Part shown: in pieces, positions 17,808 through 35,016 of the stretch | Layout: every line of letters starts with the position of its first letter | Position numbering within the stretch: the first letter of the stretch is position 1 | Assembly: GCA_937858715.1 (NCBI GenBank) | Contig: CALLZY010000010.1 | Span: forward strand, 1-38,507 | Source: an uncultured Chitinophagaceae bacterium | GTDB taxonomy: Bacteria; Bacteroidota; Bacteroidia; Chitinophagales; Chitinophagaceae | DNA: 38,507 nucleotides | Direction of reading: 5' to 3' | Made by a program: the position numbers and the translations under genes | Notes under the pieces: model-generated | What the model saw: only the letters and a program-made list of their open reading frames with translations | The model's database searches: none | What the model was told of the DNA's origin: nothing

Positions 17808-18578
17808 TCAGCCTAACACTGACGAGAGAAAGTTTTTTGTGGCTGCATTAACATCTGTGCTGTTTTCCAGGGCCTTAATAAAGGAAGTGCCAATAATGGC
17901 CCCATCAGCAATGCGGCAAACTGCGTCAAAGCTGGCTTTGTCTTTAATACCAAACCCAACGAGCACCGGATTCTTTAGTTTCATTTCCTTCAGCTTTAAG
18001 AGGTATTCTTCTGATGCTGCTTTGCTGTTTTCACCGCCGGTAGTGGATGAAGAAGAAACGGCATACAGGAAACCGCTGCTTAAGCTATCTAATTTTCTTA
18101 CTCTCTCCTCTGAGGTTTCTGGTGTTACCAGGAAAATAAAATCAAGGTTGTATTTTTTAATTACAGCACCGTATTCCGTTTCAAATTCGTATTCAGGTAA
18201 ATCTGGCAATATCAAACCGTCAACCCCAACAGCAGCCGCATCTGCACAAAATTTTTCAAACCCATATTGTAAAACAGGATTCATATAACCCATAAGAACT
18301 ACAGGTAGCGAAACTTCAGTTCTGAAATTCTTAAGTTGCTCAAACAGTTTTTTAATCGTCATCCCATTTGCTAAAGCAACACTGCTGCTGTGCTGTATCA
18401 CCGGGCCATCAGCCAGCGGGTCGCTGTAGGGCATACCCAGTTCAATAATATCTGCACCACCCTGTTGCAATGCTTTCATTATTTCAACTGTTGAGTCAAA
18501 ATGAGGGTAGCCTGCAGTACAGTAAACATTAAGAATAGGCCCTTGCTTCTTTTCAAATATTTCTCTTATTCTGCTCAT
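17808..18578 (-). CDS. trpA: Tryptophan synthase alpha subunit
   Basis: A 256-aa TIM-barrel protein that splits indole-3-glycerol phosphate into glyceraldehyde 3-phosphate and indole, which is channelled to TrpB. The active-site segment IELGMPYSDPLADGPVIQ carries catalytic Glu46 and Asp57, equivalent to Glu49 and Asp60 of Salmonella. GFGIKD, the phosphate-binding loop, lies near residue 206. The frame continues upstream to a TTG at 18596, but ATG 18578 (MSRIREIFEKK) matches the usual start. It is the last gene of the operon, 83 bp after trpB. The run of seven T right after its stop follows only a weak hairpin. Confidence 0.97.
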   Translation of the reverse strand: MSRIREIFEKKQGPILNVYCTAGYPHFDSTVEIMKALQQGGADIIELGMPYSDPLADGPVIQHSSSVALANGMTIKKLFEQLKNFRTEVSLPVVLMGYMNPVLQYGFEKFCADAAAVGVDGLILPDLPEYEFETEYGAVIKKYNLDFIFLVTPETSEERVRKLDSLSSGFLYAVSSSSTTGGENSKAASEEYLLKLKEMKLKNPVLVGFGIKDKASFDAVCRIADGAIIGTSFIKALENSTDVNAATKNFLSSVLG

Positions 18579-18661
18579 CCGGTGACAAATTTTCAATAAT
18601 CAACAACTCAATAAAACAATACACATTTCTGTCCGACAGAGAATTGAGTGTTGACAATTTA

Positions 18662-19900
18662 TTATTGAGTATTATTTTCTAATGCCTTCATATAAGTATC
18701 CAGATCCTTGTCTCCTCTCCCACTTAAACAAATCACCACCACATCATTCTTATTAAAATTAATCATACGCAGGGCATGCAAGGCATGGGCACTTTCAAGT
18801 GCCGGGATGATTCCCTCGAATTTAGCCAGTTCAAATGCTGCATTCAGTGCCTTCTTATCTGTAGCACTCATGAAGGTCGCCCTGCCGGTCTCAAACAAAT
18901 GTGCATGCAACGGCCCAATACCTGGATAATCTAATCCTGCTGATATGCTGTGCGGCTCCACCACCTGCCCGTCTTCTGTCTGCATGAGCAAACTTTTACT
19001 GCCATGCAAAATTCCGGTAGTGCCCAATTGTGTAGTAGCAGCACTCTTGCCGCTGTTGATACCTTCGCCAGCAGCTTCCACAGCAATCAGTTTCACAGAT
19101 GGTTCATCCAGAAAATAATAAAAGGTGCCAGCCGCATTGCTGCCGCCACCCACACAGGCAATTACATAATTGGGCAATTCATTTCCTGTTTTCTCAAGTA
19201 ATTGCATTCGCATTTCTTCGCTTATTACACTTTGAAACCTTGCCACCATATCGGGATAAGGATGCGGCCCCACCACACTGCCAATGATGTAATGCGTATC
19301 GTTCGGATTATTAATCCAGTCTCTTATCGCTTCATTCGTAGCATCCTTTAATGTCTTGCTTCCACTTGTCGCCGGTATCACTGTTGCGCCCAGCATTTTC
19401 ATCCTGGCTACATTGGGTGCCTGCCGTTCAATATCCTTTTCACCCATATATACAATGCACTCCAGACCTTTCAAAGCACATACTGTTGCGGTGGCCACCC
19501 CATGTTGTCCGGCTCCAGTCTCAGCAATAATCCGTTTCTTGCCCAATCGTTGCGCCAGCAATATCTGACCGATGGTGTTATTGATTTTATGAGCACCGGT
19601 ATGGCAAAGGTCTTCCCGCTTCAAAAAAATATGAGCTTTATAACGGTTACTTAACCGCTCCGCATAATATAATGGCGTAGGTCTGCCAACATAATCCCGT
19701 AGCAACTGCTGAAACTCATTTTGAAAACTTTCTTCGTAGATAATTTCCAAATACTTTGTCCGCAGTTCTTCCACATTCTTGTGCAGCATCTCCGGAATGT
19801 ATGCTCCACCAAACTGGCCGTAGTAGCCCTGTTCGTTGGGAAGCCCCTCCAAACCTCCCCGTAAGGGAGGCTTCTGGCCGTTTATTTCATTTGAATCCAT
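18662..19900 (-). CDS. trpB: Tryptophan synthase beta subunit
   Basis: A 412-aa PLP enzyme that joins indole and serine to tryptophan. PLP Lys105 lies in [10 protein letters not shown], catalytic Glu127 in AETGAGQHG, and the phosphate loop GGGSNAAG near 250. The family sequence begins at about residue 26 ([14 protein letters not shown]). The preceding residues, with [11 protein letters not shown], come from a palindromic repeat at 19841-19877 that also occurs at the start of trpG. They are thus an extra N-terminal extension, unless translation starts further downstream. The gene is 171 bp from trpF, an unusually wide gap within this operon. Confidence 0.97.
19841..19877 (-). repeat. Palindromic repeat at the trpB start
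   Basis: CCTCCCC-gtaa-GGGAGG hairpin (19854-19870) with GGGGCTT- and AAGCC-type flanks. On the minus strand it reads in frame as [11 protein letters not shown] of TrpB and is nearly the same as the repeat in trpG at 23206-23236. Confidence 0.8.
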
Positions 19901-20071
19901 TAGCTTATTTTATTTGCGTATTGCTCTTGTTTTACCAGCTTTAGTTTTTCATGGCATCGCCTGTTGTGTCACTCACTTGTACGTCCCGTTTTCATGGCAG
20001 CAATTTCTGCCAAATCGCACTGCGAGGTGCTGACTTCGCAGAGCTCTCCGTTTTTTGTTCCCATCCTCTTC
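19901..20071. other. 171-bp trpF-trpB spacer
   Basis: No gene. A stretch near 19947-19975 (on the minus strand GTGACACAACAGGCGATGCC) is similar to the DNA before the TlpA-like gene (17733-17757, CACAACTGATCAGGCGAAGCC). It may be a dispersed repeat. A second part near 19999-20046 is GC-rich with GCAGCAATTTCTGCC-type symmetry. Confidence 0.4.
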
Positions 20072-20698
20072 TCACTTCATCGCCATCTTAAACTGCAACA
20101 ATTTCGCCATGTCCTTTACCCCCGGTGCTGATTCGAATTTGCTGTTTATATCAACACCAAAGATGTCGGGGTGTTTAAAGGCTTTAACCCTGGCTGCATC
20201 CTCCACCCCTATTCCGCCACTCAGGAAAAATGGCTTTTCGATTTTTGCCTTTGTTAAGATGCTCCAGTCAAACTGCTGGCCAGTTCCCCCGAAACTTTCC
20301 TTTAATCCTCCTGTATCAAACAGGTAATAATCACACACGGCATCATAAGGGGCTACCAGTTCATCAATATTCTCATCACCTGTAATACGGAATGCTTTTA
20401 TCACTTCCACCTCGCTACTCAGATCGTCGCACATTTCCGGACTTTCCTCACCATGCAGCTGTACTACTTCCAACCCGTAATCATCAATAGCATCCAGCAC
20501 ATCAATCATCTCAGGATTTACAAACACTCCTACTTTCTTCAAATCAAAGTCTGCTTTCTTAACATCTCTCTTTGAAAGCTTGTCGCCCACATAACGGGGA
20601 GAATCCTTATAAAAAATGAGTCCCGCAAAATCAATATCGAGTCCGTCGAGTTGTTGCAGCTGTTTCATTTCGGTGATACCGCAAACCTTAATGTTCAT
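20072..20698 (-). CDS. trpF: Phosphoribosylanthranilate isomerase
   Basis: A 208-aa TIM-barrel isomerase converting N-(5'-phosphoribosyl)anthranilate to CdRP, third step of the pathway. The general base Cys6 is in KVCGIT and the general acid Asp128 in LFDTGG. The phosphate-binding motifs FLSGGI and FGVDINSKFE, followed by APGVKD, complete the family pattern. Its ATG overlaps the trpC stop as TAATG, indicating translational coupling. It is a separate protein rather than fused to TrpC. Confidence 0.97.
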   Translation of the reverse strand: MNIKVCGITEMKQLQQLDGLDIDFAGLIFYKDSPRYVGDKLSKRDVKKADFDLKKVGVFVNPEMIDVLDAIDDYGLEVVQLHGEESPEMCDDLSSEVEVIKAFRITGDENIDELVAPYDAVCDYYLFDTGGLKESFGGTGQQFDWSILTKAKIEKPFFLSGGIGVEDAARVKAFKHPDIFGVDINSKFESAPGVKDMAKLLQFKMAMK

Positions 20699-21489
20699 TA
20701 TTGTTGTTTTAGATTATTTACAAAAGTTTCATATGCCATACCAGGGTTCTCTTCTTTCATAAAGGTTTCCCCAATCAAAAAACCCTTAAACCCTGCGCTG
20801 CGCAAAGTTACAATTGCATCCGCACTGCTGATACCACTTTCGGCAATGGCCGGCTTACCAGCAGGGATTTTTTCAATCAGTTGCAGCGAAGTATTAATAT
20901 CCACTTCAAAGGTTTTCAGGTTCCGGTTATTTACACCTATCATACTCACTTCATCACAGTAATGACCCAACTCTGCATCATTATGTACTTCGAGAATGGA
21001 TTCAAGCCCGATACTTTTTGCATAACCGGCAAATTCCTTTACCTGTGCCGGAGTTAAACAGGCCGCAATTAATAAAATCACATCAGCACCAAAAGCTTTC
21101 GATTCGGCTATCTGCCATTTGTCCACAATAAAATCTTTCCGCAACACGGGAATATCTGTTACTACTTTGGTTTGAATCAAATCATCCAAATCACCACCAA
21201 AGAATTCATTATCGGTTAACACAGAAATACCGGCAGCACTTTTATTATAAGCCGTAACAACCGGTTCCACTTCCAGCTCTTTGCTTTTAAACCAGCCCTT
21301 GCTCGGACTCTTCCTTTTAAACTCGGCAATAATGCCTGTGCTGCCAGGTATAAGCAAACTTTGCACCAATGAACGGTTACTTATCTGCCAGAAAAATCCC
21401 TCCCGTTCAAATCGTTCAACCGGACTCTTTTCCTTGAAAGGCTCAATCTCTTTTTTTTTAGCTGCAACTATTTTTTCTAAAATGTCCAT
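20698..21489 (-). CDS. trpC: Indole-3-glycerol-phosphate synthase
   Basis: A 263-aa TIM-barrel enzyme closing the indole ring of CdRP. Family segments: MDILEKIVAAKKKEI at the start, IIAEFKRKSPSKG with the catalytic lysine region at about 53-65, VLTDNEFFGG, LRKDFIVD, and IGVNNRNLKTFEVD and AESGISS near the end. The frame extends to a TTG at 21495, but the ATG at 21489 gives the standard start. It lies 24 bp after trpD and overlaps trpF. Confidence 0.97.
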   Translation of the reverse strand: MDILEKIVAAKKKEIEPFKEKSPVERFEREGFFWQISNRSLVQSLLIPGSTGIIAEFKRKSPSKGWFKSKELEVEPVVTAYNKSAAGISVLTDNEFFGGDLDDLIQTKVVTDIPVLRKDFIVDKWQIAESKAFGADVILLIAACLTPAQVKEFAGYAKSIGLESILEVHNDAELGHYCDEVSMIGVNNRNLKTFEVDINTSLQLIEKIPAGKPAIAESGISSADAIVTLRSAGFKGFLIGETFMKEENPGMAYETFVNNLKQQ

Positions 21490-21513
21490 AAACAACTTTC
21501 AAATAAAATGTAT

Positions 21514-22518
21514 TTAACCTTTAGTGGACTGAATCGAAATCAATTTCTGTAAACAGTCATTTGCTTTACCACTTTCCAGGCTTTGCACTGCTGCAAGATA
21601 GGCCTCATCGTAACTCTTATACCTGCCCGTACAATGCAATGCCATTGCTGCATTAGCCAATACAACCGCATTCTGTGCCCAGGTTCCTTCTCCTTTTAAT
21701 ATGCGGGAAAAAATCTTTGCGGCTTCTTCTATCGAGCTGCCTCCATTAATATCTTCTGGTGATACCATCCGCTTGCCCAATTGCTCTGGTGTCATAATCT
21801 TTTCGCCTTCGTTTGTTATCACCTTTGTATCATTTGTTAAAGATATTTCATCATATCCATCCAGGCTATGAATGATGGTGAATGGTTTACCACTTAATTG
21901 CAATAAATAATTATAAATTCTTGCCATCTCCAGGCTATACACTCCAACTAACTGGAAAGAAGGGTTGGCTGGATTAGCCATCGGCCCCAGCATATTGAAG
22001 AAGGTACGCATGGCAAGATTTTTTCTTATCGGCCCAACTGTTTTTAATGCCGGGTGAAACAACGGCGCATGAAGAAAACAAATATTCGCTTCTTCAATCT
22101 CATTTTTCAGCTTACTGCTATCGCTGCTGAATTTGTATCCCAATTGTTCCATTACATTCGATGACCCGCTGATGGAGGATGCGCCATAATTGCCATGCTT
22201 CGCCACTTTCTGTCCTGTACCAGCCACAATAAAGCAAGCCAGTGTAGAAATATTAAAAGTATTCTTGCCATCGCCACCGGTGCCAACAATATCCATTGTT
22301 TCATGACCATTCAGATCAACCTTTACAGAGAGTTCCAGCAGGGCATCCCTGAAACCCTGTAACTCATCAATTGTTATGCTCCGCATCAGGTAAACTGTCA
22401 TGAAGGCTGTTACCTCATGTTCGTTGTACATTCCTTTGCCAATGTTCACCAATACTTCTTTGGCAGCATCACGGCTAAGTGTTTTGTGTTCGAATAAGTA
22501 TTGTAGTATTTTTTTCAT
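21514..22518 (-). CDS. trpD: Anthranilate phosphoribosyltransferase
   Basis: A 334-aa enzyme transferring phosphoribose from PRPP to anthranilate. The PRPP-binding loop DIVGTGGDGKNTFN lies at 76-89, KHGNYGASS at about 107-115, and the anthranilate-binding GPIRKNLAMRT and NMLGPMANPA segments further on. The N-terminal helical domain is complete. It stands 90 bp after trpG, the gap being filled partly by a palindromic repeat. Confidence 0.97.
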   Translation of the reverse strand: MKKILQYLFEHKTLSRDAAKEVLVNIGKGMYNEHEVTAFMTVYLMRSITIDELQGFRDALLELSVKVDLNGHETMDIVGTGGDGKNTFNISTLACFIVAGTGQKVAKHGNYGASSISGSSNVMEQLGYKFSSDSSKLKNEIEEANICFLHAPLFHPALKTVGPIRKNLAMRTFFNMLGPMANPANPSFQLVGVYSLEMARIYNYLLQLSGKPFTIIHSLDGYDEISLTNDTKVITNEGEKIMTPEQLGKRMVSPEDINGGSSIEEAAKIFSRILKGEGTWAQNAVVLANAAMALHCTGRYKSYDEAYLAAVQSLESGKANDCLQKLISIQSTKG

Positions 22519-22601
22519 GCCACTGTCCTATGAAGAGGAGCTTTGTTTTAAGTTTCTTGTAATGTTATTATCGCTTGAATAGATTATAGCCGGGTTGTAA
22601 A

Positions 22602-22625
22602 GCCCCCTTTAGGGAGTTTGGGGGC
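22602..22625 (-). repeat. Palindromic repeat at the trpG 3' end
   Basis: GCCCCC (22602-22607) and GGGGGC (22620-22625) flank TTTAGGGAGTTT. The repeat contains the trpG stop codon, so the last residues (LGPQTP) are encoded by it. Confidence 0.7.
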
Positions 22626-23271
22626 CTAGCCAATTTCTCAATATCGTTTCTCCATCCGGCGTAAGCACACTCTCCGGATGAAACTGCACTCCCTGCACAT
22701 CATATCGCTTATGTTGCAAAGCCATTACATAACCATTCTCATCCCTTGCTGTTACTTCAAGCTCTGCAGGAAATCCTTCATCACTTACTATCCACGAATG
22801 ATAACGCCCCACCAGAATCTTATCAGGCAATCCTCCAAACAACGAACTTCTGATTTCTGATTTCTGACTTCCTATTTCTATCTCCGTTGCCACTCCATGG
22901 TATACAGTCTCCAGGTTCGTCAGCTTTCCCCCAAAGGCTTCGCCTATCGCCTGATGACCCAAACACACACCTAAGATTGATTTTGTTGCAGCATATTCCT
23001 TTATCAGCGGCAATAACAATCCCGCTTCTTCAGGAATGCCGGGCCCGGGTGAAAGAATGATTTTATCATAGTCTTTCACTTTCTCCAGGGCAATCTGGTC
23101 GTTACGGAAAACATCCACCTTCGTATGTGTTATTTTTTCCACCAGGTGCACCAAGTTGTAGGTGAACGAATCGTAATTGTCAAATACTAATATTTTCGGC
23201 TCCTCCATACCTCCCCGCAGGGGAGGCTTTTGGTTTCCGCTATCAACGAAATCTTTATTTCTTTCTGACAT
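22609..23271 (-). CDS. trpG: Anthranilate synthase glutaminase subunit
   Basis: A 220-aa class I glutamine amidotransferase supplying ammonia to TrpE. Active-site residues are Cys103 in GVCLGHQ and His198/Glu200 in FHPES. The conserved start, ILVFDNYDSFTYNLV, begins only at residue 27. Residues 14-24 (QKPPLRGG, Met, Glu, Glu) come from a palindromic repeat, so translation could instead start at the ATG at 23208 inside that repeat. A heptameric repeat (22848-22882) encodes the odd SQKSEIRSS segment between the VYHGVA and VGRYHSW motifs, and another repeat encodes the C-terminus. It follows trpE by 22 bp. Confidence 0.95.
   Translation of the reverse strand: MSERNKDFVDSGNQKPPLRGGMEEPKILVFDNYDSFTYNLVHLVEKITHTKVDVFRNDQIALEKVKDYDKIILSPGPGIPEEAGLLLPLIKEYAATKSILGVCLGHQAIGEAFGGKLTNLETVYHGVATEIEIGSQKSEIRSSLFGGLPDKILVGRYHSWIVSDEGFPAELEVTARDENGYVMALQHKRYDVQGVQFHPESVLTPDGETILRNWLGPQTP
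22848..22882 (-). repeat. Heptamer repeat inside trpG
   Basis: Plus-strand units TTCTGAT, TTCTGAT, TTCTGAC, then degenerate TTCCTAT and TTCTATC. It is the same family as the GTCAGAA array near carA. It lies within the coding region and encodes IGSQKSEIRS. Confidence 0.75.
23206..23236 (-). repeat. Palindromic repeat at the trpG start
   Basis: CCTCCCC-gca-GGGGAGG hairpin (23210-23226). In the coding direction it reads CAAAAGCCTCCC, CTG, CGGGGAGGT and ATGGAG. The trpB copy differs at only a few positions, and both are read in the same frame as QKPPLRGG. Confidence 0.85.
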
Positions 23272-23293: not shown

Positions 23294-24751
23294 CTATTTA
23301 TTATGTAACACCAAAGTCCCTCCGGCGGAGGGATTTAGGAAGGTCGCCATCTCTATTGCCTTTTTCAAGGCTCCCAGCTTATTATTCACTTCCTGTAACT
23401 CACTCTCCGGATTGCTGGCAGCGACCACTCCGGCACCTGCCTGGTAAGTAAGTGTGTTGTTCCTGCTTAAAAAAGTCCGGATCATTATTGCATGATTGAA
23501 ACCTCCGTCAAATCCGGCGAAGCCAATTGTGCCGCCATAATAACTTCTGGCTGTTGGCTCATACGCATCAATCAACTGCATCGCTTTAATCTTAGGAGCC
23601 CCGCTTAATGTTCCGGCCGGGAATGTTTTTGCCATCAGTTCGAAAGGATTGCTGCCAGGTTTTACAACTGCAGCCACCTCACTCACTAAGTGTATCACAT
23701 GCGAGAAATACTGCACCTGCCTATAATGTGCCACTTCCACTTCATCACATACACGGCTGAGGTCATTCCGGGCAAGGTCAACCAGCATTACATGCTCTGC
23801 ATTTTCTTTTGCATCATTCAGGAGTTTTTCTTCGAGTTGTTTGTCCTGCTGTTCATCACCGGTACGTTTAAAAGTTCCTGCAATGGGATGTACAACGGCT
23901 TTACCATTATTAATTACTATTTGTGCCTCCGGTGAAGAGCCCATCAGTTTGTAATCTCCATAATCAAAGAAGAATAAATAAGGTGAAGGGTTAATACTGC
24001 GCAAGGCCCTGTACACATTAAATTCATCGCCTGTAAAAGTTTGCTGAAACCTTCTGCTCAGTACAATCTGGAATACATCACCCCGGCGACAACTGGCGAT
24101 TCCCTTCTTCACTATTTCAATGTACTCACCATCTGTCATATTGGAAACCTCCCCGCCAATGGTATTGAACGGATATACCGGAACATCCTTACTCTTAATC
24201 AATGATTCTACTGCAGCCACATCACTATCGACACCTTTTATTTTATTCTCACAAACAAACAGTTCGTCTTTAAAATGATTTACGGCAATGACATATTGGT
24301 AAAGCCTGTATCTCATTAACGGTATATCAGCCGTGAGCCGTGAGCCGTGAGCCGTGAGCCTGAATGTTTCAAAAAACTGAACAGCATCATAAGTAGTGTA
24401 ACCAAATAATCCCTGGGCAAATTTTGCCTCCTTCACTGCACTATCCGCTATCTCAAACCGCTGCATATAATCCCACAGCAGTTGTGATACTTCTCTTTTG
24501 TCCGGCAAAGCTACCTTTTCCGTATTTCGTCCCGGCAGTTTAAACTCTGCATAGTCAGCAGAGCGAATTTCTATTCCGCCAATAGCATTGATACAAATAA
24601 ACGACCAGCTGCTTGTGGATGCATGATAGTCGGTGCTTTCAAGCAGAATGGTGTCCCTGAATTTATCCCGCAGCCGCAGGTAAATACCAACCGGCGTATA
24701 AACATCAGCCAGCATTCTTTTGCAGGTTGTTTGTATTTCTATTTTCTTCAT
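23294..24751 (-). CDS. trpE: Anthranilate synthase component I
   Basis: A 485-aa chorismate-using enzyme; with TrpG it makes anthranilate, the committed step. The N-terminal regulatory segment ILLESTDYH (residues 35-43) contains the LLES motif of tryptophan feedback inhibition. The catalytic chorismate-binding domain has RRGDVFQIVLSRRF, HPIAGTFKRTGDE, AENAEHVMLVDLARND, SGAPKIKAMQ, and GGTIGFAGFDG. Two oddities: a 7-bp tandem repeat (24331-24360) encodes RLTAHGSRLTA in the variable linker, and the last 15 residues (from FLNPSAGG on) derive from a palindromic repeat. Expression is controlled by the attenuator upstream. Confidence 0.97.
   Translation of the reverse strand: MKKIEIQTTCKRMLADVYTPVGIYLRLRDKFRDTILLESTDYHASTSSWSFICINAIGGIEIRSADYAEFKLPGRNTEKVALPDKREVSQLLWDYMQRFEIADSAVKEAKFAQGLFGYTTYDAVQFFETFRLTAHGSRLTADIPLMRYRLYQYVIAVNHFKDELFVCENKIKGVDSDVAAVESLIKSKDVPVYPFNTIGGEVSNMTDGEYIEIVKKGIASCRRGDVFQIVLSRRFQQTFTGDEFNVYRALRSINPSPYLFFFDYGDYKLMGSSPEAQIVINNGKAVVHPIAGTFKRTGDEQQDKQLEEKLLNDAKENAEHVMLVDLARNDLSRVCDEVEVAHYRQVQYFSHVIHLVSEVAAVVKPGSNPFELMAKTFPAGTLSGAPKIKAMQLIDAYEPTARSYYGGTIGFAGFDGGFNHAIMIRTFLSRNNTLTYQAGAGVVAASNPESELQEVNNKLGALKKAIEMATFLNPSAGGTLVLHNK
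23309..23343 (-). repeat. Palindromic repeat at the trpE 3' end
   Basis: CCCTCCGGCGGAGGG (23318-23332) is a palindrome except for its central base, flanked by CAAAGT and ATTTAGGAAGG. It resembles the dispersed CCTAAATCCCTCC..GGAGGGACTTTG class. It encodes the C-terminal tail of TrpE. Confidence 0.75.
24331..24360 (-). repeat. Heptamer tandem repeat inside trpE
   Basis: Four perfect units of CCGTGAG plus CC. Twenty-eight bases of repeat are not a multiple of three, so gain or loss of one unit would shift the trpE frame. It sits in a non-conserved linker of TrpE. Confidence 0.9.
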
Positions 24752-24775
24752 GCCCTGTCCCCTTAAGGGGAAGTT
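24752..24775 (-). repeat. Palindrome between the attenuator and trpE
   Basis: Perfect 12-bp palindrome CCCCTTAAGGGG (24759-24770) within CTTCCCCTTAAGGGGACAGG, eight to twenty bases before the trpE ATG. It could fold over the translation start region, or is one more member of the repeat class scattered through this operon. Confidence 0.65.
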
Positions 24776-24824
24776 TAATTGTTATAAAAATTTGCCTTTC
24801 TCTTCACTACAGGTGGAGATGGGC

Positions 24825-24853
24825 AAAAAATAACCCCGGACATTGCCGGGGCT
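24825..24853 (-). terminator. Intrinsic terminator of the trp attenuator
   Basis: In the RNA sense, CCCCGG-CAATGT-CCGGGG followed by TTATTTTTT, located between the leader peptide and trpE. The left arm with its flank (AGCCCCG, 24847-24853) can alternatively pair with CGGGGCT at 24886-24892, at the end of the leader ORF, forming the antiterminator. Confidence 0.92.
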
Positions 24854-24882
24854 TAATATAATTGTACAATACAGTTATGACA

Positions 24883-24939
24883 TTACAGCCCCGTAAGAGT
24901 TGTATGCCACCACCATGTATTGTTATTGTACTGCTTCAT
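24883..24939 (-). CDS. trpL: trp leader peptide
   Basis: An 18-codon ORF, MKQYNNNTWWWHTTLTGL and stop TAA, with three consecutive TGG codons. Its role is to sense charged tRNA-Trp by ribosome stalling upstream of trpE. The ATG lies only six bases after the promoter's -7 box, so translation probably starts on a leaderless or nearly leaderless mRNA; no ribosome-binding site fits in the space. The CTT-ACG-GGG-CTG end of the ORF overlaps the antiterminator segment, as an attenuator requires. Confidence 0.92.
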   Translation of the reverse strand: MKQYNNNTWWWHTTLTGL

Positions 24940-24945
24940 CTGTTG

Positions 24946-24976
24946 CAAATATAAAAGCTAAACCCAAACCGGCAAA
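24946..24976 (-). promoter_or_regulatory. trp operon promoter
   Basis: TTTG (24973-24976), exactly 19 bp, then TATATTTG (24946-24953): both Bacteroidota elements at ideal spacing. The start of transcription should fall about 24940-24943, next to the leader peptide ATG at 24939. Confidence 0.85.
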
Positions 24977-25008
24977 TTCTTTTTACATTTATAATACAAT
25001 CATCCGTT

Positions 25009-25302
25009 TTGATAATCAACCATACATCTGACAGCAACAAAGGCTTGTTTTTTGTGCAGGAAGGAGCTGATATTCTTGCCAGGCTTGATTATGCCATACC
25101 CGAACCAGGAAAAATGATTATTGAACATACAGAAGTAAACGACGTTCTGCGGGGGCAAAATGTTGGATACCTTTTGGTAAAGTCGGCAGTGGAATATGCC
25201 CGCCTTCAACACCTGAAAATTTTGCCTCACTGTCCATTTGCAGCTGCGCTATTTAAGAAGAAGCCAGAATTGGCTGATGTGCTTCTAAGCTCAACTCTTT
25301 AA
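25009..25302 (+). CDS. Small GNAT-like acetyltransferase (YidJ/CG type)
   Basis: A 97-aa protein of the short GCN5-related family sometimes called Acetyltransf_CG: IIEHTEVNDVLRGQNVGYLLVKSAVEYARLQHLKILPHCPFAA. The acetyl-CoA loop is RGQNVG and the diagnostic Cys-Pro segment is HCPFA. Substrate unknown. No ATG fits the family start; the best start is the TTG at 25009 (Ile-Ile-Asn-His follow), so the N-terminus is uncertain. It diverges from the trp leader with only about 70 bp between start codons, so the two promoters must overlap or interlock. Confidence 0.82.
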   Translation: MIINHTSDSNKGLFFVQEGADILARLDYAIPEPGKMIIEHTEVNDVLRGQNVGYLLVKSAVEYARLQHLKILPHCPFAAALFKKKPELADVLLSSTL

Positions 25303-29259: not shown

Positions 29260-31404
29260 TTATGCATTCACCTTACCCTTAACCTTGGCAATTACCTCTT
29301 CGGCAATATTATTTGGTGCAGGATTATAGTGAGAGAACTCCATCGTAGAAGATGCACGGCCTGAACTCAATGAACGGAGCTGTGTTACATATCCAAACAT
29401 TTCGCTCAGCGGCACTTTGGCTTTGATAACCTCGGCACCGGCACGGTTGTCCATACCTTCCAGTATAGCACGGCGGCGGTTAAGGTCACCTGTCACATCA
29501 CCCATATATTGCGCAGGAGTAATTACCTCTACCTTCATAATAGGCTCCAGTAACACAGGTTTTGCTTTTCTTGCTGCCTCACGGAAACCAGCCTTGGCAC
29601 AAAGTTCAAAGCTCATAGAATCAGAGTCAACAGCGTGGAAGCTACCGTCAAACACACGGATCTTCATGTTATCAACCGGATAGTTAGCCAGCACACCTGT
29701 TGTCATTGATTGTTCAAAACCTTTCTGGATAGCCGGTACAAATTCACGGGGAATTGAACCACCAAACAGGTCGTTTACAAACTGGTAGTGCTTATCCGGA
29801 TTCTCAGCTTTCCATTCTGCATCAATTGGGCCCAGTTCAAATTGTATATCGGCAAACTTACCACGGCCACCCGTCTGCTTTTTCAGCGTTTCACGGTGCT
29901 GTACTGTTGCATTAAATGCTTCTTTATATGCCACCATCGGCGCACCCTGGTTCACTTCCACTTTAAACTCACGGCGCATACGATCAACAATGATTTCCAG
30001 GTGCAGTTCACCCATACCACGAAGGATGGTCTGACCGGTATCTTCATCTGTATTTACACGCAGTGTAGGATCTTCTTCTACCAGTTTGGCAATGGCCATA
30101 CCCATCTTATCAACGTCGGCCTGTGTTTTAGGCTCAACGGCGATTGCAATTACCGGCTCAGGGATAAACATGTTCTCCAGTGTAATCGGATGGTCTTCAT
30201 CACACAATGTATCACCGGTTTTTATCTCTTTGAAACCTACTGCAGCACCAATATCGCCAGCTTCGATAAAATCAATAGGGTTTTGCTTATTGGCAAACAT
30301 CTTCATGATACGGCTGATTCTTTCTTTCTTACCGCTTCTTACGTTCAGCACATAAGAACCAGCATCAAGGTGACCGCTGTAACAACGGAAGAAAGCCAGA
30401 CGGCCCACAAACGGGTCGGTCATGATTTTAAATGCAAGCGCCGCAAATGGCTCTTTCGGGTCGGGCTTACGGGTAAGCTCTTCGCCAGTATCAGGATGTG
30501 TTCCTTTTGTATCAGGAATATCAACCGGAGAAGGCAGGTAGCGGCACACTGCATCAAGGGCAGTCTGCACACCTTTATTTTTAAATGAAGAACCGCACAT
30601 CATCGGTACAATGCTCAGGTCAACCGTTGCTTTGCGGATAGCCTCATGCATTTCATCCTCTGTAATGCTGTTGGGATCTTCAAAGAATTTCTCCATCAGA
30701 CGGTCATCATATTCAGCCACAGCTTCCACCAGGTTTGCCCTCCACTCCTGAGCTTCTTCCAGCATATCAGCAGGCACTTCTATTTCATCGAAGGTCATTC
30801 CTTCTGTTTCCATGTGCCAGATAATACCTTTCATCTTAATCAGGTCAACCACACCTTTGAAGTCATCTTCAGCACCAATAGGCAATTGCAGGGGTACTGC
30901 TTTAGATCCCAGCATTTCCTTTACCTGCTTCACTACATTCAGGAAATCGGCACCGGCACGGTCCATTTTATTAACAAAACCGATACGGGGAACACCATAG
31001 CGGTTAGCCTGGCGCCATACAGTTTCACTCTGTGGCTCCACACCGTCAACAGCAGAAAACAGGGCGATAAGGCCATCCAGCACCCTCATACTACGCTCCA
31101 CTTCCACAGTAAAGTCAACGTGGCCCGGAGTGTCGATAATATTAAAGCTATACGCCTTGGTATTGGCATTAGGCTTTCCCTTGTCAGTAGGGAAGTTCCA
31201 TTTACAGCTTACCGCTGCTGATGTGATGGTGATACCCCTTTCCTTTTCCTGTTCCATCCAGTCGGTAGTGGCGGCACCATCATGCACCTCACCAATGCGG
31301 TGTATCATACCAGTGTAGCGGAGTATTCGCTCCGTTGTCGTGGTTTTACCGGCATCAATGTGGGCGGCAATACCAAAGTTTCTCTGAAATTTTAAATCAG
31401 CCAT
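29260..31404 (-). CDS. fusA: Translation elongation factor G
   Basis: A 714-aa GTPase that drives translocation of the ribosome. G1 AHIDAGKT (14-21), switch I RGITIT (56-61), G3 DTPGH (91-95) and G4 NKMD (145-148) are intact, and domains II-V continue to a normal C-terminus ([14 protein letters not shown] near the end). Unlike the common rpsL-rpsG-fusA order, no ribosomal protein gene lies within 670 bp upstream, so here fusA has its own promoter, probably at 31683-31690, with a leader of roughly 270 nt. It is a full-length, housekeeping-like EF-G; whether a second copy exists elsewhere cannot be seen. Confidence 0.97.
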
Positions 31405-33254: not shown

Positions 33255-34217
33255 CTATTTCTTTCTTATTCTCTTTCTGCCCTGCATATAGTTTTCAACT
33301 GCCGATTTTTTTGTGTACCAATTGCGGCCTTCTTTGTAAGCATCAATCTTTCCCTGGCGGGCCAGCAGGCTGATATACTCCTGACCGTAAGGTATTTTTT
33401 CATCCTCCACTAAATTTGAAATCAGCTCATAATCCTCACCACTTCCCGGCATGGCATTCAAATAGATGTTCAGGGTACGCTCCAGTGCCTGGCACATCAG
33501 CAGGCATATTTTTTTATAACTGCCTTTGTTTGCCTGGTTCAGCGCCTCATAATATTTGCTACGGTCATTTTTTAAAATAATTGCAGGAGGAAATCCTTCC
33601 TTCATCAGCAGGAGGTTCATAGCCAGTCTTACAGTTCTTCCGTTGCCATCAAAAAAGGGGTGAATCCAAACAAACCGGTGATGAAAAACCGCTGCCAGTT
33701 GAATCGTATTCAGGCTGTCAGGATTGGTGTTGATATAATCAATCAGTTCATCCAGTAAATCAGGAACTTTTTGTGCATTAGGAGGAGTGAAATTAGCTCC
33801 CACAATTCGTACACCACCATTACGCAGCCTTCCGGCAAATTCATCTTCTATACTCCGCATTACCAGCCCATGCAGTGACAAAATATCAATGCTTCGCAGA
33901 GTATAATTACCAGAGACCAGTGTGTACAGATAATCAATCGCCTTTTCATGGTTATGCACTTCAAAATGCTCCCTCAGGGATTTTCCTTTTATAGTGATGC
34001 CTTCCTGCAAAACCATTTTTGTTTCCCGGAGGTTAAGCGTATTTCCTTCAATGCTGTTGCTGTTGTAAGTCCATTCTACAGTAATATCTTCTTTTATCCT
34101 GTTCAGGGCACTTGCAGGCAATGGCCTCGCCTTTACCAGTTTGTCCTTTTTTTCAAAAAGGCGGACATAAACAGGTTTCAGTTCATCCAGACCCAGTATG
34201 TCATTTTCCCATTTCAC
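33255..34217 (-). CDS. Fic-domain protein (class II) with C-terminal DNA-binding domain
   Basis: With the GTG start chosen here, 320 aa. The Fic motif HPFFDGNGRTVR at residues 186-197 transfers AMP or another nucleotide moiety from a nucleotide to a target protein hydroxyl. The auto-inhibitory helix motif SNSIEG (53-58) lies N-terminal, making this class II, kept inactive by its own glutamate. The last 60 residues (EYISLLARQGKIDAYKEGRNWYTKKSAVENYM) resemble an excisionase/MerR-type winged helix. The frame is open to an ATG at 34322 inside truA, but a TACATTTG box (34221-34228) and an inverted repeat (34235-34267) fill the DNA between truA and this GTG, arguing for the shorter protein. Confidence 0.88.
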   Translation of the reverse strand: MKWENDILGLDELKPVYVRLFEKKDKLVKARPLPASALNRIKEDITVEWTYNSNSIEGNTLNLRETKMVLQEGITIKGKSLREHFEVHNHEKAIDYLYTLVSGNYTLRSIDILSLHGLVMRSIEDEFAGRLRNGGVRIVGANFTPPNAQKVPDLLDELIDYINTNPDSLNTIQLAAVFHHRFVWIHPFFDGNGRTVRLAMNLLLMKEGFPPAIILKNDRSKYYEALNQANKGSYKKICLLMCQALERTLNIYLNAMPGSGEDYELISNLVEDEKIPYGQEYISLLARQGKIDAYKEGRNWYTKKSAVENYMQGRKRIRKK

Positions 34218-34220
34218 ACC

Positions 34221-34228
34221 CAAATGTA
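34221..34228 (-). promoter_or_regulatory. Putative -7 box of fic (TACATTTG)
   Basis: A full TAnnTTTG match on the minus strand, three bases before the GTG at 34217, so a leaderless fic mRNA is possible. No TTTG at -33; that position is occupied by the inverted repeat. Confidence 0.45.
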
Positions 34229-34234
34229 CTAATT

Positions 34235-34267
34235 TATCGGATAATAAATAATTATACCTATCCGATA
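34235..34267. promoter_or_regulatory. Operator-like inverted repeat before fic
   Basis: TATCGGATA (34235-34243) and TATCCGATA (34259-34267) are perfect 9-bp inverted arms, 24 bp from centre to centre. They lie immediately upstream of the -7 box, between the truA stop and the Fic coding region. A natural binding partner would be the DNA-binding C-terminus of the Fic protein itself. Confidence 0.6.
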
Positions 34268-34290
34268 TTAAGAAATTTTGCTGAAAATAC

Positions 34291-35016
34291 TCAATACTGC
34301 ACCGAAACCAGAAAAAGTCCATGTGCCGGTACAGCAAAACTTGCTTTGGTGCAGTCTTTGGCTTCAATAATTTGCCTGAACTCTTCAAGAGAAATTTTCC
34401 CACGGCCTGCTTTCAGCATAGTTGCCGTTAATGCCCGCACCATACCACGGAGAAAGCGATTGGCCTTAACATTGTACACCAGGCAATCATTTTCGTTCAG
34501 CCAGCGGCTTTCCAGTATGTTGCACTGAAAAGTTTTTACCTGAGTATTACGTTTAGAAAAAGAAGTAAAGTCATTATACTCTTTCAATATCTCAGCCGCC
34601 TGCTGCATTAACGGCACGTCAAGTTTAAAAGGAAAATAATAAGCACGGTCAGCCAGAAAAGGGTTTTTTTGTTGATAGATGTAATACTTGTATTCACGGC
34701 TGAGCGCATCAAAGCGGCAGTGTGCTTCATCATTCATCTGCCTGATATTTCTTATCACAATATCCGGGGGAAGGATAGCATTTATTTTATAAACAAACTT
34801 TGGATTGATTGTTCCATCGTAATCAAAATGGAAAAAATTCTGTAGTGCATGCACACCGGCATCGGTACGGGATGAGCCGGTCATCACCAGCCTTTCTTTT
34901 TGCAGTATTTCAAAAGCTGTTTCAACTTCCGCCTGAATGGTGTTAGCATTTTCCTGTGACTGAAAGCCACTGTATGCAGTTCCTTTGTATGATACTTCTA
35001 AAAAATAGCGGGGCAT
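34291..35016 (-). CDS. truA: tRNA pseudouridine(38-40) synthase
   Basis: A 241-aa enzyme modifying U38-U40 in the anticodon stem. The catalytic aspartate is Asp52 in GSSRTDAGVHA. The N-terminus RYFLEVSYKGTAYSGFQSQ and the later ALSREYKYYIY, DFTSFSKR and NRFLRGMVRALTATMLKAGRGKIS segments are all typical. The start lies 5 bp after the stop of the DUF4476 gene, indicating one transcript. The stop is followed by the promoter-like DNA of fic. Confidence 0.96.
   Translation of the reverse strand: MPRYFLEVSYKGTAYSGFQSQENANTIQAEVETAFEILQKERLVMTGSSRTDAGVHALQNFFHFDYDGTINPKFVYKINAILPPDIVIRNIRQMNDEAHCRFDALSREYKYYIYQQKNPFLADRAYYFPFKLDVPLMQQAAEILKEYNDFTSFSKRNTQVKTFQCNILESRWLNENDCLVYNVKANRFLRGMVRALTATMLKAGRGKISLEEFRQIIEAKDCTKASFAVPAHGLFLVSVQY

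Follow-up and report, generated by a model that had tools for sequence, protein, structure and literature searches.

What controls the trp genes on the minus strand of a 38,507-nt contig of an uncultured Chitinophagaceae bacterium (CALLZY010000010.1 of assembly GCA_937858715.1; this whole stretch is called the window), and to which known kind of RNA element does the region preceding trpE belong? A first-pass annotation, made from the letters alone, had read this region as a complete trp attenuator and had thought it probably identical with the Bacteroid-trp motif. We conclude, with a probability of roughly 93%, that this element controls the trpEGDCFBA operon by ribosome-mediated transcription attenuation. 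The first gene of the operon, trpE, matches NCBIfam TIGR00564 with 396 bits (2.5e-118), which does not reach the curated cut-off of 517.7; the curated NCBIfam cut-offs are reached by trpG, trpD, trpC, trpB and trpA and not by trpF. Given their order and strand, trpG-D-C-F-B-A are presumably co-transcribed with trpE.

Table 1. Features of the trp leader region and of the operon downstream, in window coordinates.
Feature	Position	Strand	Basis
-33 element TTTG of a Bacteroidota-type promoter	24973..24976	-	sequence; TTG conserved in relatives
-7 box TATATTTG (consensus TAnnTTTG), ending 6 nt before the leader ATG	24946..24953	-	sequence and relatives
Predicted transcription start (+1), giving a 2-nt 5'UTR	24941	-	placement of TAnnTTTG at -12 to -5 in the accessible text of PMC9723704
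Leader ORF, 18 codons, stop TAA, peptide MKQYNNNTWWWHTTLTGL	24883..24939	-	translation and comparison with relatives
Three Trp codons in a row, TGGTGGTGG	24907..24915	-	translation; invariant columns in the alignment of 50 leaders
Default hairpin 1:2, in which the ORF around WWW and CATAC pairs with the post-stop region, enclosing segment 2	24866..24923	-	minimum-energy fold, RNAalifold consensus, complementarity against shuffles
Segment 2, CGGGGCT, 5' strand of the antiterminator, overlapping the last codons	24887..24893	-	sequence, shuffles, reading frames, masked folding
Segment 3, AGCCCCGG, partner of segment 2 or segment 4	24846..24853	-	sequence, terminator scan, swap test
Segment 4, CCGGGGTT, 3' strand of the terminator	24832..24839	-	stem and compensatory changes
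T-run of the intrinsic terminator	24825..24830	-	sequence
trpE, anthranilate synthase component I, first regulated gene	23294..24751	-	NCBIfam TIGR00564
trpG, trpD, trpC, trpF, trpB, trpA	17808..23271	-	best NCBIfam matches

Of the 440 relatives that a TrpE search yielded, we retained the best 80, which come from genera of Chitinophagaceae or Chitinophagales and from MAGs under assorted Bacteroidota labels; as the best 80 of 440, they measure the conservation of the leader in close kin. In 79 of the 81 sequences (the window and its 80 relatives), trpE is preceded within 500 nt by an ORF encoding WW or WWW, and in the two exceptions (L045 and L084) the contigs end 65 and 45 nt upstream of trpE, respectively. 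Three consecutive Trp codons are found in 78 of these 79 leaders and two in the remaining one (L081), and the start codon is ATG in 76 and GTG in 3. The WWW leader announced by the first-pass annotation thus holds, the Trp codons being kept in close relatives and not absent from them, and the locus has the short Trp-codon ORF upstream of trp biosynthesis genes by which ribosome-mediated trp attenuators are recognised. The bare pattern ATG-N21-(TGG)3 occurs seven times in the window's own genome (one of them being this leader) and the reversed control pattern three times, so that the weight lies on the conservation of the leader and not on the pattern. A variant with four consecutive Trp codons, ending FFWWWWHTNSSGVL, was seen in one family member (L139 and L171, genome G021), on the reverse strand upstream of trpE.

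The rest of the attenuator anatomy that had been described before trpE is likewise present on the minus strand. In the antiterminator, CGGGGCT (24893-24887) can pair with AGCCCCG (24853-24847); the terminator stem (24853-24832) has 8 pairs, 6 of them G-C, closing a loop of 6 and followed by ATTTTTT. Among the relatives, an intrinsic terminator between the leader ORF and the first gene, a further mark of the class, was recognised by script in 77 of the 79 leaders and seen by eye in the other two (L052 and L081), which the script missed because their T-run is lost to an A-tract and which were left out of all structure work. The minimum-energy fold of the RNA from 24941 to 24826 reaches -34.8 kcal/mol (shuffles -25.2, sd 3.5, z -2.75, 2/200 as good) and consists of two hairpins, one between the WWW region and the post-stop region and the other being the terminator. 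The second complementarity that had been proposed to set the default fold, GTACAATA (24931-24924) with TATTGTAC (24871-24864), also exists on the minus strand. In the minimum-energy fold, GTACAATA is unpaired and the adjoining ACAATACA takes the same post-stop stretch; the exact GTACAATA:TATTGTAC helix appears when a ribosome masks the last codons.

We then asked which of these pairings are kept in the relatives, by comparing cognate and swapped duplex energies (2000 permutations) in the 50 non-redundant leaders of the 77. An advantage of cognate pairs is clear for the terminator (0/2000 permutations as good, z -12.7) and for the whole stretch running from the ORF to six nucleotides past WWW with the post-stop region (0/2000, z -3.7), modest for segments 2 and 3 (11/2000, z -2.5) and missing from the pre-WWW segment with the post-stop region alone (583/2000, z -0.55). 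No cognate advantage was found in these 50 leaders for WWWCATACA with the post-stop region alone either (1659/2000, z +0.95), and the pairing of segment 2 with the post-stop region gave z +1.5. Complementarity exceeds that of shuffles in all 50 leaders for segments 2 and 3 (-13.2 vs -7.3 kcal/mol) and for WWWCATACA with the post-stop region, in 34/50 for the pre-WWW pairing and in only 14/50 for segment 2 with the post-stop region. RNAalifold on the alignment of the same 50 leaders (A1) gave 23 pairs, 6 of which changed on both sides; five of these belong to the terminator and the sixth to the base of the WWW hairpin. Because the WWW strand cannot vary, changes in its partner are one-sided (such as G-C to G-U).

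The pre-WWW helix was pursued in further subsets. Six leaders, including that of the window, have NNTW, and in these it again showed no cognate advantage (1803/2000 as good); in the other 71, with redundancy kept, the pre-WWW segment together with the first Trp codon did (3/2000). In 30 fetched loci of the Rfam family Bacteroid-trp (RF01692), the pre-WWW:post-stop helix covaries (0/2000) and exceeds shuffles in 27. As a family-wide feature, the proposed second helix was therefore rejected, being unsupported in the non-redundant 50 and in the six with NNTW: its sequences exist and the whole pairing from the ORF to WWW is supported, but a helix of the GTACAATA:TATTGTAC type alone is not consistently supported in the family.

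The GGGG of segment 2 lies 13-16 nt after the Trp codons in 77/77 leaders; in 76/77, 3-5 nt separate its end from the stop codon. It is found in all three reading frames (48, 18 and 11 of the 77) and the Trp codons stay in frame, which indicates that it is RNA and not peptide that is kept there. The nucleotide beside GGGG gave no clear signal of covariation with its partner (39/50 paired vs 36.8 expected), so that the pairing of segments 2 and 3 rests on an almost invariant core.

To see how a translating ribosome bears on this pairing, we folded transcripts ending before segment 4, all of native sequence, under a 28-nt ribosome mask, counting leaders with P(seg2:seg3)>0.5. This value was exceeded in 22/77 leaders without a ribosome, in 75/77 with the A site at the first Trp codon, in 76/77 with it at the third and in 0/77 with it at the stop codon. 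By folding, the antiterminator, exclusive with the terminator, is thus free under a Trp stall and covered at the stop codon, as expected of the class. That the parts of the attenuator exist, are conserved and exclude one another is established by sequence, comparison and folding together. When any pairing of the terminator arm with upstream sequence was counted instead, 25 of 77 leaders qualified without a ribosome, 77 with the first and 77 with the last Trp codon and 38 with the stop codon; this looser criterion discriminates less because, with the ribosome at the stop codon, it takes in helices other than that of segments 2 and 3. Once segment 4 is present, the terminator wins at equilibrium in 68/77 leaders when the A site holds the first Trp codon and in 76/77 when it holds the third. 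That it wins even under a stall counts against the reading unless the switch depends on the order in which the segments are made (kinetic trapping), as textbook attenuation does.

Ribosome stalling, the kinetics and the response to tryptophan are what we infer for this attenuator. Transcription would begin some 2 nt upstream of the leader ATG, and the ribosome would load at the 5' end of the RNA. When charged tRNA-Trp is scarce, the ribosome would stall on the three Trp codons and break the hairpin between WWW and the post-stop region, leaving segment 2 (GGGG) free to pair with segment 3 before segment 4 is made; no terminator would form and the trp genes would be transcribed. When tryptophan is plentiful, the ribosome would reach the stop codon and cover segment 2, segments 3 and 4 would pair and transcription would end. 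Without a ribosome, hairpin 1:2 would hold segment 2 in most leaders and termination would again be the default, a point against which is that segments 2 and 3 are favoured even then in 22/77. Most likely, the trp genes would be read through only when tryptophan is short.

The promoter reported before the leader is present too; its predicted start, 24941, agrees with that of the first-pass annotation, and it is best read as of Bacteroidota type, with 19 nt between TTTG and TATATTTG. The relatives were examined at the 77 of the 79 leaders that have at least 45 nt of sequence upstream (L083 and L086 were left out). The gap between the end of NAnnTTTG and the leader start measures 3-12 nt in 72/77 of these loci (2.7% in mononucleotide shuffles); with the strict TAnnTTTG this holds in 18/77 (1.0% in shuffles). 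TTG lies 15-25 nt upstream of the box, mostly 19-20, in 71 of the 72 loci that have it. A sigma-70 promoter was set aside: a scan gave a weak 9-of-12 pair, but the conserved elements are TTG and NAnnTTTG. The distance from the box to the start codon is 7 nt in 48 loci, 8 in 10, 6 in 7 and 4 in 6, that is 4-8 nt in 71/77. Three loci outside the 3-12 nt range (L028, L052 and L074) fit 7 nt, as read by eye, if an in-frame upstream ATG is used; one (L077) has the box at 2 nt and another (L042) has no box.

The accessible text of PMC9723704 places TAnnTTTG at -12 to -5, and with this placement the 5'UTR is predicted to measure 0-4 nt in 71/77 loci and 2 nt in the window. None of GGAG, GAGG and AGGA is found at -20 to -4 of the leader start in any of the 77 family loci. 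Such a short 5'UTR would be unusual, since leaderless mRNAs make up 5.5% in F. psychrophilum (accessible text of PMC9723704) and 5'UTRs below 10 nt about 3.7% in B. thetaiotaomicron, in which leader-like sORFs are also remarked on (accessible text of PMC7366714). The layout has a counter-example within the family, a WWW leader with its box 16 nt upstream (G033); in G013 the box stands at 7 nt (by eye). In the window's own genome, the strict layout of promoter and start occurs six times and its reversed control not at all: one site is the trp leader, one precedes an ORF of at least 501 codons (running to the end of the fetched stretch) and four precede ORFs of 3-73 codons. In the 30 RF01692 loci, the box lies 16-20 nt from the ATG in 20, 4-7 nt in 7 and elsewhere or nowhere in 3; the near-leaderless layout is thus not unique to the family, but it is the rule among close kin.

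We lean, with some reserve, towards an attenuator welded to its promoter: a near-leaderless leader (5'UTR of 0-4 nt) whose ribosome would load on the bare nascent 5' end, with no room for a ribosome-binding site, and whose promoter, start codon, Trp codons and switch would form one nearly fixed unit, with the last part of the ORF containing segment 2, in a phylum that has few leaderless mRNAs. Attenuation requires a ribosome that keeps pace with RNA polymerase; the near-leaderless start, if true, would offer a natural case of ribosome loading without a Shine-Dalgarno sequence fast enough to match the polymerase. The literature within reach of our search, with subscription papers mostly outside it, yielded no description of a Chitinophagaceae trp leader or of its start site.

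How far such leaders extend was followed with a model built from the 50 family leaders (R1); in genome tallies with n above 40, stricter filters were used and weak matches were lost. Run across the phylum, R1 scores 67-106 bits in 7 genomes, all of the window's family, the next score being 45 bits. Thirty R1 loci were fetched; a WW leader precedes trpE in all 7 of the strong and in 11 of the 23 weaker loci, but not in the other 12. Four of the 11 same-family genomes of the sample gave no strong R1 match: in G013 and G033 a WWW leader with a divergent tail precedes the gene of a close TrpE, and G030 and G207 have only a TrpE-like paralogue (29-31%). G207, of the genus of the window's genome (2.0 Mb, rated 100% complete), gave no R1 match and its paralogue stands at 29%; it has probably lost, or never had, trpE and the leader. 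Through R1 we also came upon WW leaders with terminators before trpE in other Bacteroidota families (L148 in G350, L140 in G107 and L142 in G339); since tails and terminators differ again there, the trp leader may be one fast-changing group across the phylum.

Whether the window leader is a plain member of RF01692, named in one table row in the accessible text of Weinberg 2010 (PMC2864571), seems to us doubtful, if well worth considering. It has the same place, the same WWW leader and the same logic, and lies in the right phylum, but the curated score is not reached: the covariance model gave no match at E<=10 in positions 24700-25100 of the window (401 nt) or in its own genome, the cut-off of 49 bits is reached in none of 97 family genomes (own included), and no Rfam family reached its cut-off in the window or in the 19 of the 80 relatives that were scanned whole. 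Across the phylum RF01692 is over its cut-off in 27 of 296, 25 of these in one family (f5). A WW leader and a TrpE hit occur together in each of the 30 RF01692 loci fetched, and in 29 of them trpE lies at most 900 nt downstream. Below the cut-off, 20 places in the window's family are listed at E<=1, and a WW leader precedes trpE at 8 of the 10 that were fetched; in the other direction, weak R1 matches fall on at least 13 of the 27 RF01692 sites above the cut-off, counted among the matches listed. Stalling also changes the folding of the RF01692 loci in the same sense, the terminator arm pairing upstream (P>0.5) in 24/30 with the ribosome at the first Trp codon and in 26/30 at the last, against 5 at the stop codon and 8 without a ribosome. 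This came from masked folding, a simple test of segment 2 against the terminator arm having given nothing beyond shuffles. As that complementarity exceeds shuffles in only 8/30, the place of segment 2 in RF01692 loci is uncertain; its best candidate begins 0-12 nt downstream of the stop codon's first base in 27/30, mostly at or after the stop codon, whereas in the family segment 2 lies inside the end of the ORF. Leader tail and terminator differ as well, and the -7 box, 4-8 nt before the start in the family (71/77), is mostly at 16-20 nt in RF01692 (20/30). The weak mutual matches of the two models at the same sites suggest that the family leader is a divergent relative of Bacteroid-trp. Thus, the identity proposed in the first-pass annotation survives as probable kinship and fails at the level of the model: the element is a trp attenuator of a known kind that is not a member of RF01692 by curated score.

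The enterobacterial Trp_leader (RF00513) makes a very improbable label. Its model matches positions 24700-25100 over its full length at 28.9 bits (E=5.6e-4), and the E. coli trp attenuator shares the mechanistic logic and the order of segments, with a WWW hairpin, a segment 2 overlapping the last codons and a terminator. The score stays below the cut-off of 41 bits, none of the 97 family genomes exceeds it, the family loci have none of GGAG, GAGG and AGGA at -20 to -4 (0/77), and the best RF00513 match in the same genome (L101, 34.1 bits) is a plain terminator hairpin with no short WW ORF, so that RF00513 scores carry little weight; the label was dropped. We give equally little credence to a leader RNA or peptide that acts mainly in trans on other genes, with cis attenuation secondary. 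The precedent is rnTrpL and peTrpL of Sinorhizobium meliloti (accessible text of PMC7298713); here, the tail of the peptide shows no conservation of amino-acid sequence, GGGG falling in three frames. According to the same text, the trpLE(G) attenuator of S. meliloti resembles ours in having its Trp leader ORF at or beside the RNA 5' end; it belongs to another phylum, and our family has a predicted 5'UTR of 0-4 nt from a Bacteroidota promoter. Nearer in phylum and alike in mechanism, Flavobacterium psychrophilum, of a different family, shows strong clues for leader-peptide attenuation before amino-acid operons (accessible text of PMC9723704) and a conserved Bacteroid-Trp RNA upstream of its trp operon (accessible text of PMC6414381).

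The ribosome-mediated attenuator described here extends trp attenuation to a family in which RF01692 and RF00513 miss their cut-offs in the 97 genomes examined, and the alignment of 50 leaders with its model could widen the Rfam family. Elsewhere on the minus strand of the window lie a 714-aa elongation factor G-like protein (29260-31404) and a 382-aa ORF with a Fic/DOC domain (33255-34403).
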